From Plicaturopsis crispa FD-325 SS-3 (taxonomy: Eukaryota > Basidiomycota > Agaricomycetes > Amylocorticiales > Amylocorticiaceae): a stretch of 64,000 nt of DNA. Numbering within the stretch: position 1 is the first letter of the stretch; every line of letters starts with the position of its first letter. Of this stretch, positions 5,137-13,870 are shown piece by piece. The stretch is taken from NCBI GenBank assembly GCA_000827205.1, contig KN832558.1, positions 229,955 through 293,954 of the forward strand. The letters run 5' to 3'. Made by a program: the position numbers and the translations under genes. The notes under the pieces are model-generated. The model had not been told where the DNA came from. It saw nothing but the letters and a program-made list of their open reading frames with translations, and did no database searches.

Positions 5137-6360
5137 TAGTTAATTGCTGAGCCATCAAAAATAGGATGGTCGTACCAATCTCGTGTCTACACTTTTAGGA
5201 TCCAGGGTGGGCATCGCAGCTGGATAGCTCGAGAGGGAGAGTGTATGAGTAAGCGCTAACAACATTCCTGAGTACGTAGATTTAAGTAGCACGGATTTAG
5301 CGCGATATAATACCGGTCACATTCCTTTCACCTTTAGCGCTGGTTAGTCTCCCGTAGAACGTTCCCCGACGAGTGAAGACGATCGTTCACTTCTGCTGCG
5401 TACAGGGCACCAACGTTAAGTATCACCGGATTAGATCAACCATTAAACACCGCTCACCAGGAAGGATATCCATATGTAGACGCTTTCATGATCAAACTCA
5501 AGTTTCACAGGCCACTATCTGCATCGGGGCGAAACTTCGCGAGGACATGCATGCCGGAGACTCGAAGTAGAAGGGATGCACGCCCTACATGCGAAGTGTG
5601 ACAGCACCACCTCGAGGACCCCACGGTGCACGGAAAGATGCGGTGGCGCCTGCGTACTCCAAATGAATGTGAGTCACTAAGGCGGATGCATAACTGAAGT
5701 CATACACGCTGTACTATACTCACCCGAAGCAGGTGCGGTGGTAGGATGATGGGAGGCATAAAGACGTGTGCACCGTGGCCGTCTGCGACGCAATGACGTT
5801 TCGGTGTTAACAGGAGACGCCTGCTCGATACGGTGATCGCAATTACTGGTGTTCTGAATCCCGAAAGTGACCGTGGCAGGAACAGGAAACTCCTATAAAT
5901 GGCCCGAGCTTCCTTGCTATGGAATTCTATAAGCAGCACGAGCTGGAGATAGCTAAGCTCCGGTGTTCGAGCGCGAGATATGGAACTGTGTCAGTGTCTA
6001 CCTGGAGTCCAACGTTAGATAGCTTCAAACTCAAAGATGACACGACAATACGCAACGCACAAGCCTACCAGGTAGTGCAGTCGGATAAAAGGCCAATATA
6101 TTCACCATGAAACGGGCCAATGGCTGTGCCATGCAAGAAAATTCGGTCATTTCATTGCCCTAGGCCCTGATAGACAAAAAGAGAAGGGAAGGGAGCCGCG
6201 AGCGAGCGTGAACTTGAAGAGTTAAAGAGTTGGAACGGTGAAGGAGGTATTCGAAGACGTTGCGGTGAAGCCTTTGCAGAGTCAAGAGGCGGTAGGAGGC
6301 GGTAGTGCTGACGCGTTGACGCGTGGCGTAGTCTGCTTTCTGACGCGTTGGCTTGTCGAT
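5137..6360. other. Intergenic, no supported gene
   Basis: Upstream of kinase B and left of the foldback element. Open frames are short and unrecognised. Near 6310-6350 an 8-9 base motif of the type GACGCGTTG occurs three times, just outside the left foldback arm. Confidence 0.45.
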
Positions 6361-6490
6361 TGGTTAAATTTTAGTCTCGGATCCAGCCGTTGTCGGAGGT
6401 TGAAAACACACGACCCAAAACCTCCTACAACGTCTGGTGCACTCAGTAAGAGACACCCCCCATCGGGTCACTTCAGGGGCGTCACGCCCC
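6361..6490 (+). repeat. Left foldback arm
   Basis: Inverse of 7407-7535. Contains the 14 base hairpin stem pair (about 6389-6402 and 6418-6432) and, at its inner edge (6476-6490), the near-palindrome GGGGCGTCACGCCCC. Confidence 0.8.
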
Positions 6491-7406
6491 AAAATTGGTA
6501 CAATTTGTTACCTTCTGTAACCTGTGTGACTTCAGTCACTCCCGTGCAAGGTGGGCGCGTCGCGCGATCTGCACTGAACGTTTTGACAGACTACTACTGT
6601 ACAGGATGCGTCGAGTACGCGCATTACTTGACGCGGACGTCGAACAGCGCCTCTCGCTGGGCGTGCTTCAAATCTAGCTGCTCGGGCCTCGTCTATTGGT
6701 ACACAAATGCGGCCCATTGGCTCCCGAAACGCGTCGCGCTCCCGCTGTCCTCGGTCTTAATGCCGCACCAGATATCTCGGACGTCCGTCTCTCGCGAGAG
6801 AGCATGACGGGTGCTCCTATCTTGTGCTCCATGTCCTCCGCTTGTAGGGAAGGAATATGGGCCGATTAGCTGGCGGTGGAGTTTGCTTAATGGTGTGTTT
6901 TGTGACCCTAGCGGCTCGGATTGTGCGCTGACGATTTCTGCCGCCAGCTGACTAGTACCGGCTCGCCACCACCATGGCCTTTTTTTCTTTTCGTTACATG
7001 CCCGCTGTATCGGCGGTTCATCGTCGCTGGATACTCCTTGCGCACATTGTTCTCGCGATTTGCTGGAAGCATATCTGCAACACGGACCTCCACACTGTGC
7101 CTCGAGTCTATCCTGCTCGTTTGGTGCTGGCCGCGTGCGTTTGGAGTCTTTGCTGGCCGCGTGAATGCATGTCATCGTTAAGCATGCATTTTGCATGCAT
7201 TTCTGGAGATACTTACATGCATACCGTACACTCAAATTTACTTATTCTCATGATACGCGCTAGTTCGGCTTAGAATGTAAGCATTGGGCTACCTTGACAT
7301 CGAAATACGCACGCCGACGCACTCCGTGCATTCAATATCATTTACGAGTGCAGCAGCGGCAGCAGCAAGTGCGCTGTTTTGCGCGGAAACTCAGATTACT
7401 GCATTT

Positions 7407-7535
7407 GGGCCGTGACACCCCTGAAGTGACCCGATGGGGGGTGCCTCTTACGGAGTACACCAGACGTTGTAGGAGGTTTTGAGTCGTGGAAATTCAACCT
7501 CCGACAACGGATGGGGACGAGACTAGTTAAATTTA
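7407..7535 (-). repeat. Right foldback arm
   Basis: Inverse of the left arm, with the same internal hairpin (stems about 7467-7480 and 7495-7508). Only scattered substitutions and small indels separate the arms, which suggests recent origin or shared constraint. Confidence 0.8.
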
Positions 7536-7645
7536 ATCGGCGCTTGAATGGCCTTGCAGCGTGAAGCAAGCGCGTCGACGGTGTCGCGCTTCATATACCG
7601 TACTCTATGACACTGTAATATCTGAACAAAGCTCTATTTATTGAA

Positions 7646-10600
7646 ATGCCTCACGCCGATGCCGGAGTTCAAGCCGGACCACCGTGGGCCGCACTCTCCA
7701 CCAAGCAAGTCACTTCTGATTCTCCTACGAGCCGAGAAACACTGGATGATATACTGCTAACGATCAAGAACTCTGGCTGGACTCTCGGCGATTTTCTGCA
7801 ACGACTTTTCGTGAAAACCACTCGGAAGGATGCAGGACGATCGCGCGTGCACGCGTCTATCGTCTCGCAATTTCTATCTGGGCGACTCCCCGTAAAGGCT
7901 GAAGATATCGTCGAACTAATGTACACGAATCACGACGGCGCGGCAAAGGCAATTCGTAACACGAAGAGCCCAGACAAGGAGTTGTCGGCGGTGCGGTTAG
8001 CGAAGAAATTGAAAGAGAGGGAGAAAATGGGTGCTGCTGCACAATCGCGTCTGCGGGAATGGGCGATCTCGAAGGTGGAAGGTCTGGTGGACGGCGAGGC
8101 CGACGCACTCTCGGGAAAGGAGGGTGGATTTCATGTTGCGGTAAAGGACATGACTTGGGATTTCGTCCACACATTCTCCTTTGGCGGCATCGCTTCTGCG
8201 ATGCAGGAGAAAGCACCGACAACTTTACGGCTTCTCTGCGCGGCGGCTATGGACCGTGACCAGCGCAAGAAAGTCTTACCGTCCGGCTTAGCCTCATCCT
8301 CGTTTTATTCCGAACACTTTGCGAAACCGCCCGCACTGGGCAGTGGGAACAGCCGCCGGGATCCTCTCGTTGTGAGTACAATTATCTGCTATATAATCGG
8401 GCGCTTTCTGACATATGGTTGCATGCAGATCATCGTTTTCGCGTTCGTCCTTCTCATGGGCGCGCGAAACATGAATTTCTCCGCTTTTCGAAGGATTTTT
8501 GGGGTCATGTTGTTTGCCTACACTGCCCCACATGGACTCTATACTGTGCTATCCCGGCTGGGTGTATCCGTCTCATATACAACTGTTTTGAAACTTTTAC
8601 GGCGACTCTCCGAATCCGCGAAGGAGAATGTCCGGAAAAAAGCCAAATCGCGTGCATTCCTGCTCATCTACGACAACATCAACCGCATGTCGCGCGCCTG
8701 GGACCCAGACGTGGGCCAAAAGGATATCATCCACAATGGAACGGCGGCTACGTATGTCGAGCTTGAGGATTGCGACGTCGAAAAAGCGTTCGATCCAAAT
8801 ACACTCCGTGCTGCACAGGAGGCGCAGGGGAGGAAGAAGTTGAACATCAATGTCCTACATGACCGAGTCGATTGGGGAAAGCTGAACAAGACACTTGCGC
8901 TACAGTGTGCTTTGATTTTGGTGGACCACGTTCCGACTCTCGATAAATCCAAGCGACACCGGGAAGTCCTGGAGCTACGTCTTCGTGTCGCATTGGCTAT
9001 TCATCGCATGCGTCGAGGCCGTAAATCGGGCATCTATCCTCTCGCAACATCAAATCACAATGAAGGTGTGACGGGGGAGAACGCGTATGTCCTCGATGAT
9101 CTCGCAACGCAGCTGGGACTTACCAAGGAGGAAGTCGCACGTCTCTTGGTGTTGATTGGCGGGGATCAGTCCACGGTGGAGAAACTTCGCGCCCTCAAGA
9201 AGTTCCTTGCGACTTGTCCTCACGGGTACTCAAACTACGGCTGGGTTCTACCGCTGATTCAATTATGGCACATGGGGTGGGCCGACTTGGAGCGTGTTCT
9301 GCGGACTCATTGGGGCGGGACTGGGGTTGATGACATCTCTTCGTTTCGCACCGTCAATGTGCTCCTGGGACGAAAAGTCAAGGACGAGAAACGGCCGGAC
9401 TATTACCCCACGCAACACCTCGTATTTGATAACCTCAAGGTCGAAGTTTTGGATTGCTGGAAGTAAGCCATTGTATTCGGATCGGTCTGAATGTCACCGC
9501 TACGTATTAAGCATGCTGATAATGTCGTCGGCAGGATCTATCTTGGTGCACAAGATCTCGACGAGTATTTCCGCGCACATCCAACAGAGCCGGAAGACTT
9601 GCTCAAGATGGCGGACGAGCTCTATCTTCAGTACCTCACGACGGAGAGCTATGAGCACGCATTGCGGCCTGACAGCGAAGGGCCTAGCAAATTTGCCGCC
9701 GGCACACCTTGGACAGACCGTAGGCCGCCCGTCGTAGAGGAGGAGTCACAACCTCCGGTGGATTTTGTAGGCGACCAAGTTCTCGCAAACACCATCCTGC
9801 GGATGCGTGATAGCTTGATCCATTACGAATTCCAGTGTGCGATCGCCGACGGTGACATCGGTCGCGCTATGAATGTTATGGCAGTAAGTATCGCAGCCGC
9901 TACATGTCAATTAATTTTGCACTAACGTCTCGCTGATGAACGTAGGTTTGGACATTCACGTTTACCGGATCCGGGAGGAGCAAATATGCAAACGAACTCC
10001 TCGAGCTGGCGTGTAATTTCGAATATGAATACTCCGAATGGCTTAAGGAAGGTGTACTCAACAATTGGCTCGTTAACTTGTCAGGTCTCGAGGGATGCTG
10101 GTTTCCAATGGACCTCCTGGAAGAGAAGAACATAAAGCAGCTCAAGAAGATGGCAAAGCGACGGGACATATCATTTGGCAGTGATTTCTTTCGCGACATC
10201 GTGGCGTACAATATTCGTGCTTTCCTCGAGGCAAAGAAGTCGATGGAATCAACGGTCCGCCTCGCTCACAAGGGCGGGTCGCACCGGCGTGCCAAGAAAG
10301 TTGCTGCCATGAAGAAGCTAACCACGGCTGTCGAAGAACGGGAACTACACAAGTTTCGGGCGGGGCGCACTTTGGGTCACAAAGCTCAGGATGACTTCGA
10401 GGTAGGGTACCTACGACTAGCGGACTCGACAAGGATCGAGGACTTCATAGCACGAACGCTTCGAGATGCTGGGGATATCCACGGGGAGGGTGACGATGTG
10501 GAAACTGAGATGGAGGACATTGATGGTGCGCATAGGGGACCTAGCATGATGATGAACGGTAATCTTGTTAATGATTTGGACTCCGAGCATGAGGACAGTG

Positions 10601-10653
10601 ACGACAGCCTGAGTGGTACGGAGGATGGTTTAGATGAGGAGGAGGACGAGTAA
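7646..10653 (+). CDS. DUF6589 domain-containing protein, 938 aa
   Basis: Exons 7646-8371, 8429-9462, 9535-9883 and 9946-10653 join into an uninterrupted 938 aa frame; introns 1 and 2 are multiples of three (57 and 72 nt). The central and C-terminal parts match the Agaricomycete DUF6589 family as I know it: a VYDN-type motif (LIYDNIN, Asp324) followed by NGTAAT (345-350), a GGDQ motif (Asp488) followed by a conserved region ending RTHWGG, then a tail block with FTGSGRSKYANELLEL and LVNLSGLEGCWFPMDLLEEKN. The C-terminus is very acidic. Function of the family is not established to my knowledge; the spaced Asp motifs are reminiscent of RNase H-fold nucleases or transposases, which is inference. 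It is convergent with the helicase, 183 bp between stop codons. Start is the first ATG after an in-frame stop-rich leader. Confidence 0.88.
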
Positions 10654-10836
10654 AAGTGCAGTACTAGATCAGCTATGTAGGAAAAAATGATAAGTATAAG
10701 CGGCTTGGATAGAATTATCGCACAGATATCGTGCAGGTAAATTTGAAGTGAAGGTGACTATAAGAAAGAGATACCAAAAATTAAGGAGTCGGTGTGCATG
10801 AGAATGAATAGGAATAGCTAGTAATTTTGTAGAGAG

Positions 10837-13494
10837 CTACCGGATGGTATGGGTGGCTGCAGCGGTGCGTGCAGATCTACGCAAGCCCGGAGCACTGTCA
10901 TGCGGTGGGGAGTTGTTTTCCTTCCCCCGCGTGGACGTGGTAGACTATGATAAAGCAGTATCAGCAATGACAGAGGAGGTAGTAAGGCACTTGAGCTTAC
11001 CGATACCTGCTTAGGCTGCTTGGCATGTACTCGAGCGCGCTTCGATAGTGTGTTGGGCTGCGATCCCAGTATTTCTCGCTTGCCCGCACGGCTAGGGCGT
11101 CGAGAAGTAGATGCATAGAAACGCTTTGGGGGTATGGCGACGGCAGGGGCAGATGCTTTGCGATTGGTAGACTCGTTGTGATGGCCAGGTGTGAGCGGTA
11201 CTGCAGTATTGAGAGCAAGGCGGCTCGGGGGCGTCTCGGGAAGACGCAAGTTCACGCGCTTCACTTGGTCAAGCCCTACGCCAGCTAGAGCAGCTTTGAC
11301 GTTCGCATCAGCCCTCCTCTGATCAGCGGCACGTCGCTTGGCTTTGGCCTCCTCGTGGCGGGCTTCGAGTTTTTCCCGCATGTTGTGGCCGAGAGTCTCT
11401 ACAACACTCCACAACTTTAAACCGAACGCATCCCAGTACCGCCAGCCCTTCATACGATTGGCGAGAGCCTCCTGTGAAGTGACGAGATGAAAATCCCGGG
11501 TAATAGCCTTGATATCGGTGCCCGTGAGAAAGCAGCGGGCGCTCAGGAAGGAGGAGCTGGCTAAAGCCTTTCTGCTCCGACGAATACCGAGCGCCGCGTC
11601 CTGTATACCCTTCGCAACCTCGTCAACGTCTCGCACCAGGAGCTTCATATATCCTGGTGTTTTGTCCTGCCCGGCACTGGGATCCGTCACCTTCGCGACA
11701 GGTACTGTAAGCGGTCGGGGTCCGTCAATGGTCGGAGGCGGGCGACAAGAGCTGCAGCGTCCGCAATCCTGCGCGACACCAGGGTTTCCGTAAATGATAT
11801 TAATTTGCCGTGTGATGCAGAATCTGCGAGCGTGGGCAGCGATGATGAGCTGCAACGCCGTACAAGTGGTTTTGACGGCGGTCACTTGTTTTGTCTTCGG
11901 TGGCGCACTGGACTTCCCCTTCCCGCCGTTCTTTCCCGCCTTCTTTGGGACCTGATCTGCCGAGTCCACGTCCACGTCAATGTCCATCGGTACGCCCTGT
12001 TGCGCGGAAGCGTCCTCAAACACGGCCGGTGTCTCATCCAGCTCCATCGCGTCCCCGTCGTCAAGATCGGCGTCGGCCTCAACATCAATCTCCATAGTGT
12101 CCGAGCCCGGCGAGGCGCACGGAGCGTTCTCGTCGAACTCATCCCCCCTTAGATCGAGGAGTCCATCATCCTCTCCAGTAGAGATGTTGTCGGAGGCACG
12201 GTCTGTCTCTGTGAGTAAACGGGGATCTGGTGGGTCCGACGCGGCGTATATTAAAGCTGCTTTGGCGTCGTTTTTGGTGACATACACGATACATTGACCG
12301 CGCGAACCGCGGGCGCGAGCAGGACGTCCTCCTCGCTGTACCAGAGCAGACGCACTGCGAACCTTCGGGTAGAGTACCACGCTGTCAATGTCCGCAACGT
12401 CTACCCCGACTTCAAGGACAGGACTTGTGACAAAAATCGCACATTCCCGATCGTCTCCGGTCTGATAGAGCGCAGCGAGGCTCTCGCGCTTGCAGTCCGG
12501 ACAGTTCATGGAGTGTACGTGGCGGATGAGGAGATGTGCGATGTGTCGTAAATGCGGTGGGACCAGTGTGCGCAAGTACACGGTCACTCGGTGCCCGAGA
12601 TCGATTTGCTCGATGTATAAGAGACGTTTGACGACGTCGGAAGCCTTTGTGAGTGTACTGGGAATGAGCCAATCGAGGTCGCGGAACTCAAGACCGGTGC
12701 ACGGATATTTGACGTCCCGAAAAATGAAGTCGACGTTGTGCCGCTCGCAGTCTCGTCTTTCGAAGTGGAACGCGCCAGTTCGGAAGTCGAGCGAGCGTAG
12801 GATGGCATCTGTTTGTCGCCCGGGCATCACGGAAGCTGACATCCCTACCATCGCAGTGTGGTCCGGTGAGCGAGCGCGCACCGACCAGATGTCCTTGAAG
12901 CAAGGGCGAAAATCCGCGCCCCACTCATCGACAAGATGTGCTTCGTCGACTACAGTTGTAGCCCATCGAGCACGTACGTTCGGGTCCAAAGTCCACGAGT
13001 TGAACTCGGCGGAGCTGAGAGATTCCGGGGAGAGCAGGATGACTTGGTACGTCCCCGTCTTGGCATCCTCCCAAAGGTTGTGGCCGATTTTCGATGCAGC
13101 GGCAAGGGTTTCAGCGTTGATGACAACGGATCTGAGTCCCTTTTGCGCTAGGCTGTTTGACTAAACGAAATTAAAACATGAATCCGAGAGAAAAACACTG
13201 GCAACTCACCAGGTCGCTTTCGAGAAAGTTGGTTGGCTCAATGACCAATGTGATCGTCCCTTTCCGTGAAATAGCCGGTATAAAAATCAAACCAGACTTT
13301 CCATCTCCTGTAGCACTGACACAAAATACGTCCGTCCCATTGAGAATGGAGGCGGAGCATCGTAACTGGAATTCCGACGGTGTAAATGGGAGGGATGGTC
13401 GAACAAGATCGCGCAGTTTGTCGAGCCCTGCCGGAGTGCTCCAGTCTAATTCTGACCGTCTGGACCAGTCGAAGGTTGGGTGTATCGCAGGCAT
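10837..13494 (-). CDS. RecQ-like SF2 DNA helicase, 850 aa
   Basis: Exons 13210-13494, 11001-13160 and 10837-10944 give a continuous 850 aa frame. Visible in order: Q-motif-like FQLRC (42-46), Walker A ATGDGKS (61-67), DEAH box (167-170), motif III SAS (203-205), a C-lobe with VLEVGVDVADID (343-354) and motif VI QRGGRPARARG (370-380). An acidic then Lys-rich linker (about 405-525) follows, then a RecQ-type zinc cluster with Cys543 and CGRCSSC (561-567). No RQC winged helix or HRDC domain is recognisable; the tail (about 650-850) is basic and low complexity. Expected role: ATP-driven 3'-5' DNA unwinding in the nucleus. It is divergent from SEC13 (376 bp) and convergent with the DUF6589 gene. 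The last intron (10945-11000) was chosen because it replaces a hydrophobic read-through by a charged tail. Confidence 0.88.
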
Positions 13495-13870
13495 AGTATA
13501 GGAATTAAATAAAGAGAAATAAATACATGGTGTACATGTCGCGCCTGCAAAGACGATAGTGGGAGGACAGGGAAAATGCTCGACGCGACTTACAGCGCGG
13601 AATGATGGAAATGTTGGCTGTGTTTGTACACAAACGTGACATGCCGGATTGCCGAAGATCACCAATCGACAAGCCCCCCCTTTTAGAAAGCAGACGTCAG
13701 ACAAGGATATCCGAGCCTGCGAGGTTCAAGGAATTGTCTACTACCTGCCTTTGGGAGACTAGCGTGGCGCTTCAAAGTCCGCTTTCAAGGCAGCTGCAAA
13801 GTAATAGACCGTACACGTCGTCGTTTGTACTGGTCTCCGACGCTGCGTGCTTATATAGCGCCTAGCAAAA
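13495..13870. promoter_or_regulatory. Divergent intergenic region between helicase and SEC13
   Basis: 376 bp separates two start codons on opposite strands, so both promoters must lie here. A TATATA-like word sits at about 13852, very close to the SEC13 ATG, so it is unlikely to be its TATA box at normal spacing. No inverted copy of the foldback arms was found here. Confidence 0.5.

Follow-up and report, generated by a model that had tools for sequence, protein, structure and literature searches.

A DUF6589 protein and a RecQ-like helicase as the probable coding part of an AcademH-like DNA transposon in Plicaturopsis crispa

The window analysed in this study is a stretch of 64,000 nucleotides (contig C5:229955-293954) within the 33.2-Mb assembly of the wood-decay mushroom Plicaturopsis crispa FD-325 SS-3, and it holds two convergent genes, one for a protein of the Pfam family DUF6589 (PF20231), the other for a RecQ-like helicase of superfamily 2 (SF2). 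The evidence presented below makes it very probable that the gene pair encodes the proteins of a fungal DNA transposon of the Academ/AcademH type, bounded by terminal inverted repeats, with DUF6589 serving as its DDE (Asp-Asp-Glu) transposase and the RecQ-like helicase as its second enzyme. An earlier note on this DNA had proposed the two genes as a DNA-processing or mobile module, a guess that proved largely right but missed that the element is of a kind that is large and apparently already described. The pair occupies the following positions of the window.

7646..10653, + strand: DUF6589 gene, proposed DDE transposase (PF20231 match; conserved D324, D488, H523 and E763; fold of the homologue P0109)
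7646-8371, 8429-9463, 9536-9886 and 9949-10650 plus stop, + strand: exons of the public DUF6589 gene model (four exons, three introns, ATG at 7646)
10818..13494, - strand: convergent RecQ-like SF2 helicase gene (Pfam DEAD and Helicase_C matches, motifs, cysteine cluster)
~13494-13210 (exon 1) and 13160-10818 (exon 2), - strand: helicase exons (ATG at 13494, stop at 10818-10820)

Results

Genome-wide pairing of the two genes

The search of the whole P. crispa genome with PF20231 returned 56 exon-level matches, 35 of which, after removal of extra exons belonging to genes already counted and of a single stray match on contig C7, were resolved into 27 loci. Helicase loci, 21 in number, were pooled from the window query (17 matches) and from queries taken from two other pairs. 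Of these 21 helicases, 16 have a DUF6589 gene no more than 5 kb away, compared with 0.2 expected from coverage, a count to be read in light of the bias towards paired matches that comes with using element helicases as queries. The arrangement is convergent in 14 of the 16 pairs and divergent in two; at the same distance, five helicases and 11 of the 27 DUF6589 loci are unpaired. The non-random co-occurrence foreseen in the earlier note is thus borne out. Outside the window there are 15 pair loci, of which 12 (L046-L057) were fetched; tblastn found both genes at every one of the 12, ten times convergent and twice divergent (L046, L052). In other species the two families occur on equal-sized contigs in nine cases, a shared contig being inferred from the sizes, and two of the nine are metagenome contigs of only 5,456 and 6,495 bases. 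Relatives of either protein were not confirmed in any IMG/VR contig.

The DUF6589 and helicase genes travel and diverge together. Over 13 loci the pairwise distances of the two proteins are correlated (Mantel test, r 0.77-0.79, p 0.0001), and both genes have the same nearest neighbour at nine of the loci, which do not include the window.

Several observations on distribution stand beside these counts. Contig C5, with ~6% of the assembly, carries seven of the 16 pairs, and either local hopping or a transposon-rich contig possibly underlies the clustering. The stray match at C7:1702324 is a weak one, located inside an open frame given as 11,606 codons. The DUF6589 C-terminal pieces at C1:215976-216662 and C2:538650-539336 have equal scores and lengths and perhaps reflect a recent inter-contig duplication.

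Terminal repeats and target-site duplications

Self-comparison revealed inverted repeats flanking both genes at L047, L048 (weak), L050, L053, L054, L056 and L057, and the terminal inverted repeats of bounded copies mostly start with YAGNCTC. Scanning for such ends gave one perfect 9-bp duplication pair at each of L046, L050, L052, L053, L056 and L057, and the fetched ends of a split element around L055 show a further perfect 9-bp duplication, so that both genes are surrounded by perfect duplications at seven of the 12 fetched loci. With ≤378 candidate pairs of ends across the 12 loci, approximately 0.0014 perfect 9-mers would be expected. Two-gene and non-autonomous copies together show nine different 9-bp duplication sequences, which are free of any TTAA constraint. 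Since perfect duplications surround both genes, the units must have been inserted as blocks, and the combination of terminal inverted repeats with 9-bp target-site duplications identifies these seven pair loci as DNA transposons. L055 and L057 are related copies, 87% alike over 2,683 bases, that sit at separate sites, each with its own duplication. Such elements have moved, and so have their non-autonomous relatives.

The exact scan detected no 9-bp duplication at L047, L048, L049, L051, L054 or the window pair, and the flexible search at L047, L048 and the window gave matches at chance level only; N bases number 2151 in L049, 259 in L051 and 917 in L054. The split element (C12:956873-973712, comprising L055, L064 and L065) is a repeat-bounded unit of 16.7 kb with a perfect duplication, its DUF6589 gene apparently split by ~10 kb of other DNA; the DUF6589 locus at C12:958629, which has no helicase within 5 kb, sits inside it. 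In L050, ~720 bp with 32-bp inverted ends of their own (positions 380-1105) interrupt the left repeat, seemingly a short insertion of a different type. The 9-mers GATAGCCAC (left, ~1000) and GTGGCTATC (right of 7896) of L054 are reverse complements, as if part of the locus were inverted, and the left side runs into N. In L048 the pair is flanked on either side by inverted sequence ~70% alike (1-475 and 8173-8638), which recurs at L052:1-350. The DUF6589 element at C5:561588-569865 has a perfect duplication, with no helicase detected in it.

DUF6589 fold and catalytic triad

The public protein P0069 (PLICRDRAFT_157547) is the window DUF6589 protein and matches PF20231 at E 8.8e-118. It contains Asp324 in a YDN motif, Asp488 in GGDQ and an HWG element at 536-538, all as the earlier note had described them. 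Folded with 20 sequences, P0069 reached a predicted local distance difference test (pLDDT) score of 60 and gave no usable structural match; the usable structure model is that of the homologue P0109 (104 sequences, pLDDT 83). This model shows the RNase H-like topology of a DDE transposase. Residues of the triad, placed on it by secondary structure, are positioned on the first strand (D), the fourth strand (D) and the last helix (E), and the corresponding D396, D554 and E818 are present in 103, 104 and 102 of the 104 sequences, the remainder being gaps. The equivalents in the window protein are D324, D488 and E763, and H523 is also conserved. DUF6589 is therefore proposed as a DDE transposase with an acidic triad, its catalysis predicted from the model; the RNase H-like fold with an acidic site that had been surmised for the protein agrees with this prediction.

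The best solved matches of the P0109 model (VIA-align rows 1-14) are the Hermes (hAT), RAG1, P-element and Transib transposases, with which it shares a predicted RNase H-like DDE core and a helical insert ahead of the final Glu. Identity to these enzymes is only 8-12% over aligned residues; Foldseek of the P0109 model against PDB and viral structures returned nothing at E ≤ 0.001, and a profile search of solved-structure sequences with DUF6589 gave no match. No helicase partner is known for the hAT, P element, Transib and RAG1 transposases. A further difference is that hAT and P elements share a C/DxxH motif (PMC9587614, consulted in excerpt, as were the other papers cited here), whereas DUF6589 retains only an invariant His, with G or Q before it.

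The RecQ-like partner

The window helicase has a single intron (~13209-13161), and as a query it reaches RecQ proteins. A DEAD plus Helicase_C core together with a RecQ-type cluster of zinc cysteines was found. The SF2 motifs and zinc cluster reported in the earlier note are recovered as DEAH, SAS, QRGGR and C-x17-C-x2-C-x2-C, the Walker A region, located in exon 1, having been left unscored. The likeness extends to RECQ5, BLM and bacterial RecQ, which provide the best solved matches of the helicase homologue P0001 (RECQ5 first, E 4e-13). Unlike RecQ helicases, the window frames and four homologues have no Pfam match to RQC or HRDC, and motif VI of the window protein reads QRGGRPAR. Some RecQ proteins do without both RQC and HRDC. 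In a helicase piece of 168 codons compared between L055 and L057, 22 synonymous and two non-synonymous differences were counted (crude pS 0.19, pN 0.005), and the large excess of synonymous change indicates that the helicase was under purifying selection during copy divergence.

The window copy and its nested element

Both genes are present and convergent in the window. The tail-to-tail arrangement stands as previously noted. By the helicase open frame the stops are 164 bp apart, and the 183 bp given earlier would imply another helicase end. A weak DsbD_2 match in the DUF6589 frame overlies read-through of the first intron; this stray membrane-protein match arises because that intron stays open on read-through. 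The gene to the right of the pair has WD40 matches, consistent with the SEC13 neighbour named earlier. Beyond the genes, we assign the following features.

6331..6364, + strand: likely left terminal inverted repeat, degenerate (partner of 13661-13695)
13661..13695, - strand: likely right terminal inverted repeat, degenerate (partner of 6331-6364)
6372..7525, + strand: nested non-autonomous element of 1,154 bp upstream of the DUF6589 gene (L057-type repeat, perfect 9-bp duplication)

Positions 6331-6364 and the reverse complement of 13661-13695 form a 35-column match with a score of 22, a value that 5 of 300 shuffled sequences and 3 of 283 pieces of the window also reached; with the nested element kept in, the best inverted match is the same pair, extended. 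The first 10 bases of the left repeat, a pattern picked post hoc, are found at three places in the window, including the two ends in inverted orientation, and they also open the left repeat of L048. Due to the degenerate inverted match and the recurrence of this ten-base start at the ends and in L048, the window element likely spans ~6331-13695, inclusive of the nested element. The extent of 7646..13494 proposed before includes both genes and is apparently too narrow.

The nested element lies between the two copies (6363-6371 and 7526-7534) of a perfect 9-bp duplication, GTTAAATTT. Its repeat is 78-82% identical to that of the two-gene element L057, and the left repeat has 24 matches in the genome, several of them as inverted pairs ~1.1-1.6 kb apart. 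Five of seven such non-autonomous regions fetched have perfect 9-bp duplications (L058, L059, L060, L062, L063), and none was found at L061 and L068.

The window copy looks like an older member of the group, its genes intact and its ends decayed. These same features bear on the idea that it is immobile and kept by the host as a domesticated transposase-helicase pair. Intact open frames with the triad retained would fit, as would degenerate ends, the absence of a detected duplication and the nested insertion near the left end, and no close helicase copy exists in the genome, the next-best match having ≤34% identity over most of the core. However, a young or recently active copy predicts intact genes equally well, and we consider domestication of this copy unlikely.

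Discussion

The collective evidence is understood most readily when the pair is compared with published fungal elements. AcademH transposons generate duplications of 9 or 10 bp and AcademX ones of 3 or 4 bp, with a link to helicase and nuclease described (PMC10045372). Fungal Academ copies mostly carry domains such as DEAD and the RecQ family and are often annotated as host genes (PMC6416283); AcademH is present at low copy number in Basidiomycota, Ascomycota and Mucoromycota (PMC10799480); and putative non-autonomous Academ elements have been reported from the mushroom Marasmius oreades (PMC8290104). The P. crispa elements resemble AcademH in their 9-bp duplications, in the RecQ-family/DEAD helicase beside the transposase, which applies to all 12 fetched loci and the window, and in their low copy number in a basidiomycete; an acidic DDE/D triad is suggested by conservation. 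We file them as AcademH-like, a putative assignment based on two features already reported for fungal Academ/AcademH, the 9-bp duplications and the RecQ-family helicase.

In the mechanism we propose, DUF6589 would bind the inverted repeats, whose starts are YAGNCTC in most bounded copies, and would cut the element ends through its RNase H-like site (D324, D488 and E763 in the window protein), the chemistry being that expected from the fold. Joining to the target with a 9-bp stagger would then result in the 9-bp duplications. The RecQ-like helicase may unwind the ends or aid excision, joining or repair. A helicase and an RNase H-fold enzyme acting as a DNA-mobility system, as the earlier note envisaged, receives support from the pairing, the predicted fold and the triad.

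The class assignment could be mistaken if DUF6589 and the Academ transposase belonged to unrelated families and the helicase had been acquired independently, giving a separate two-gene superfamily. No function is annotated for DUF6589 in Pfam, its sequence matches no solved transposase, and the excerpt of PMC10799480 gives only helicase Pfam domains for AcademH; moreover, the 120 relatives listed out of 231 appear to come from mushroom-forming species wherever the organism is given, whereas AcademH is titled as of animals and fungi. Against this, both the 9-bp duplications and the RecQ-family helicase are reported for fungal Academ/AcademH, which occurs in Basidiomycota (PMC10799480). We regard a separate superfamily as quite improbable, and give the same low credence to its fuller version, an Agaricomycete superfamily only fold-related to hAT, P and RAG1, some copies of which, such as that in the window, were kept by the host after end decay.

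KolobokH, the fungal Kolobok lineage, is a DNA transposon that likewise encodes a RecQ helicase and is reported from fungi only (PMC9587614). In KolobokH the helicase is situated downstream of the transposase domain, whereas the P. crispa helicase has a gene of its own, convergent with DUF6589. Kolobok duplications are 4 bp and TTAA-specific, those in P. crispa are 9 bp and varied in sequence, and KolobokH is rejected as very unlikely on that count. Elements of the MULE type make 9-bp duplications too. They were considered, and the Pfam matches obtained for three DUF6589 proteins include no MULE domain. Two unrelated genes brought together by chance are hardly credible given 16 pairs against 0.2 expected, common ends and co-divergence, with nothing found in favour.

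The literature searched contained no paper on DUF6589, with PF20231 mentioned in four unrelated papers only, and none on a RecQ-linked transposase in Agaricomycetes. The kind of element seems already known; what is new is the proposed role of DUF6589, still a Pfam family of unknown function. Our study thus has importance in proposing a function for a family common in mushroom genomes, where it is annotated as ordinary genes, and for its RecQ-like partner. Masking both as transposon genes would alter RecQ gene counts and studies of gene-family expansion in Agaricomycetes. Additionally, the elements have defined ends and duplications and come with non-autonomous substrates, which makes them a useful system for probing the role of a helicase in cut-and-paste transposition.
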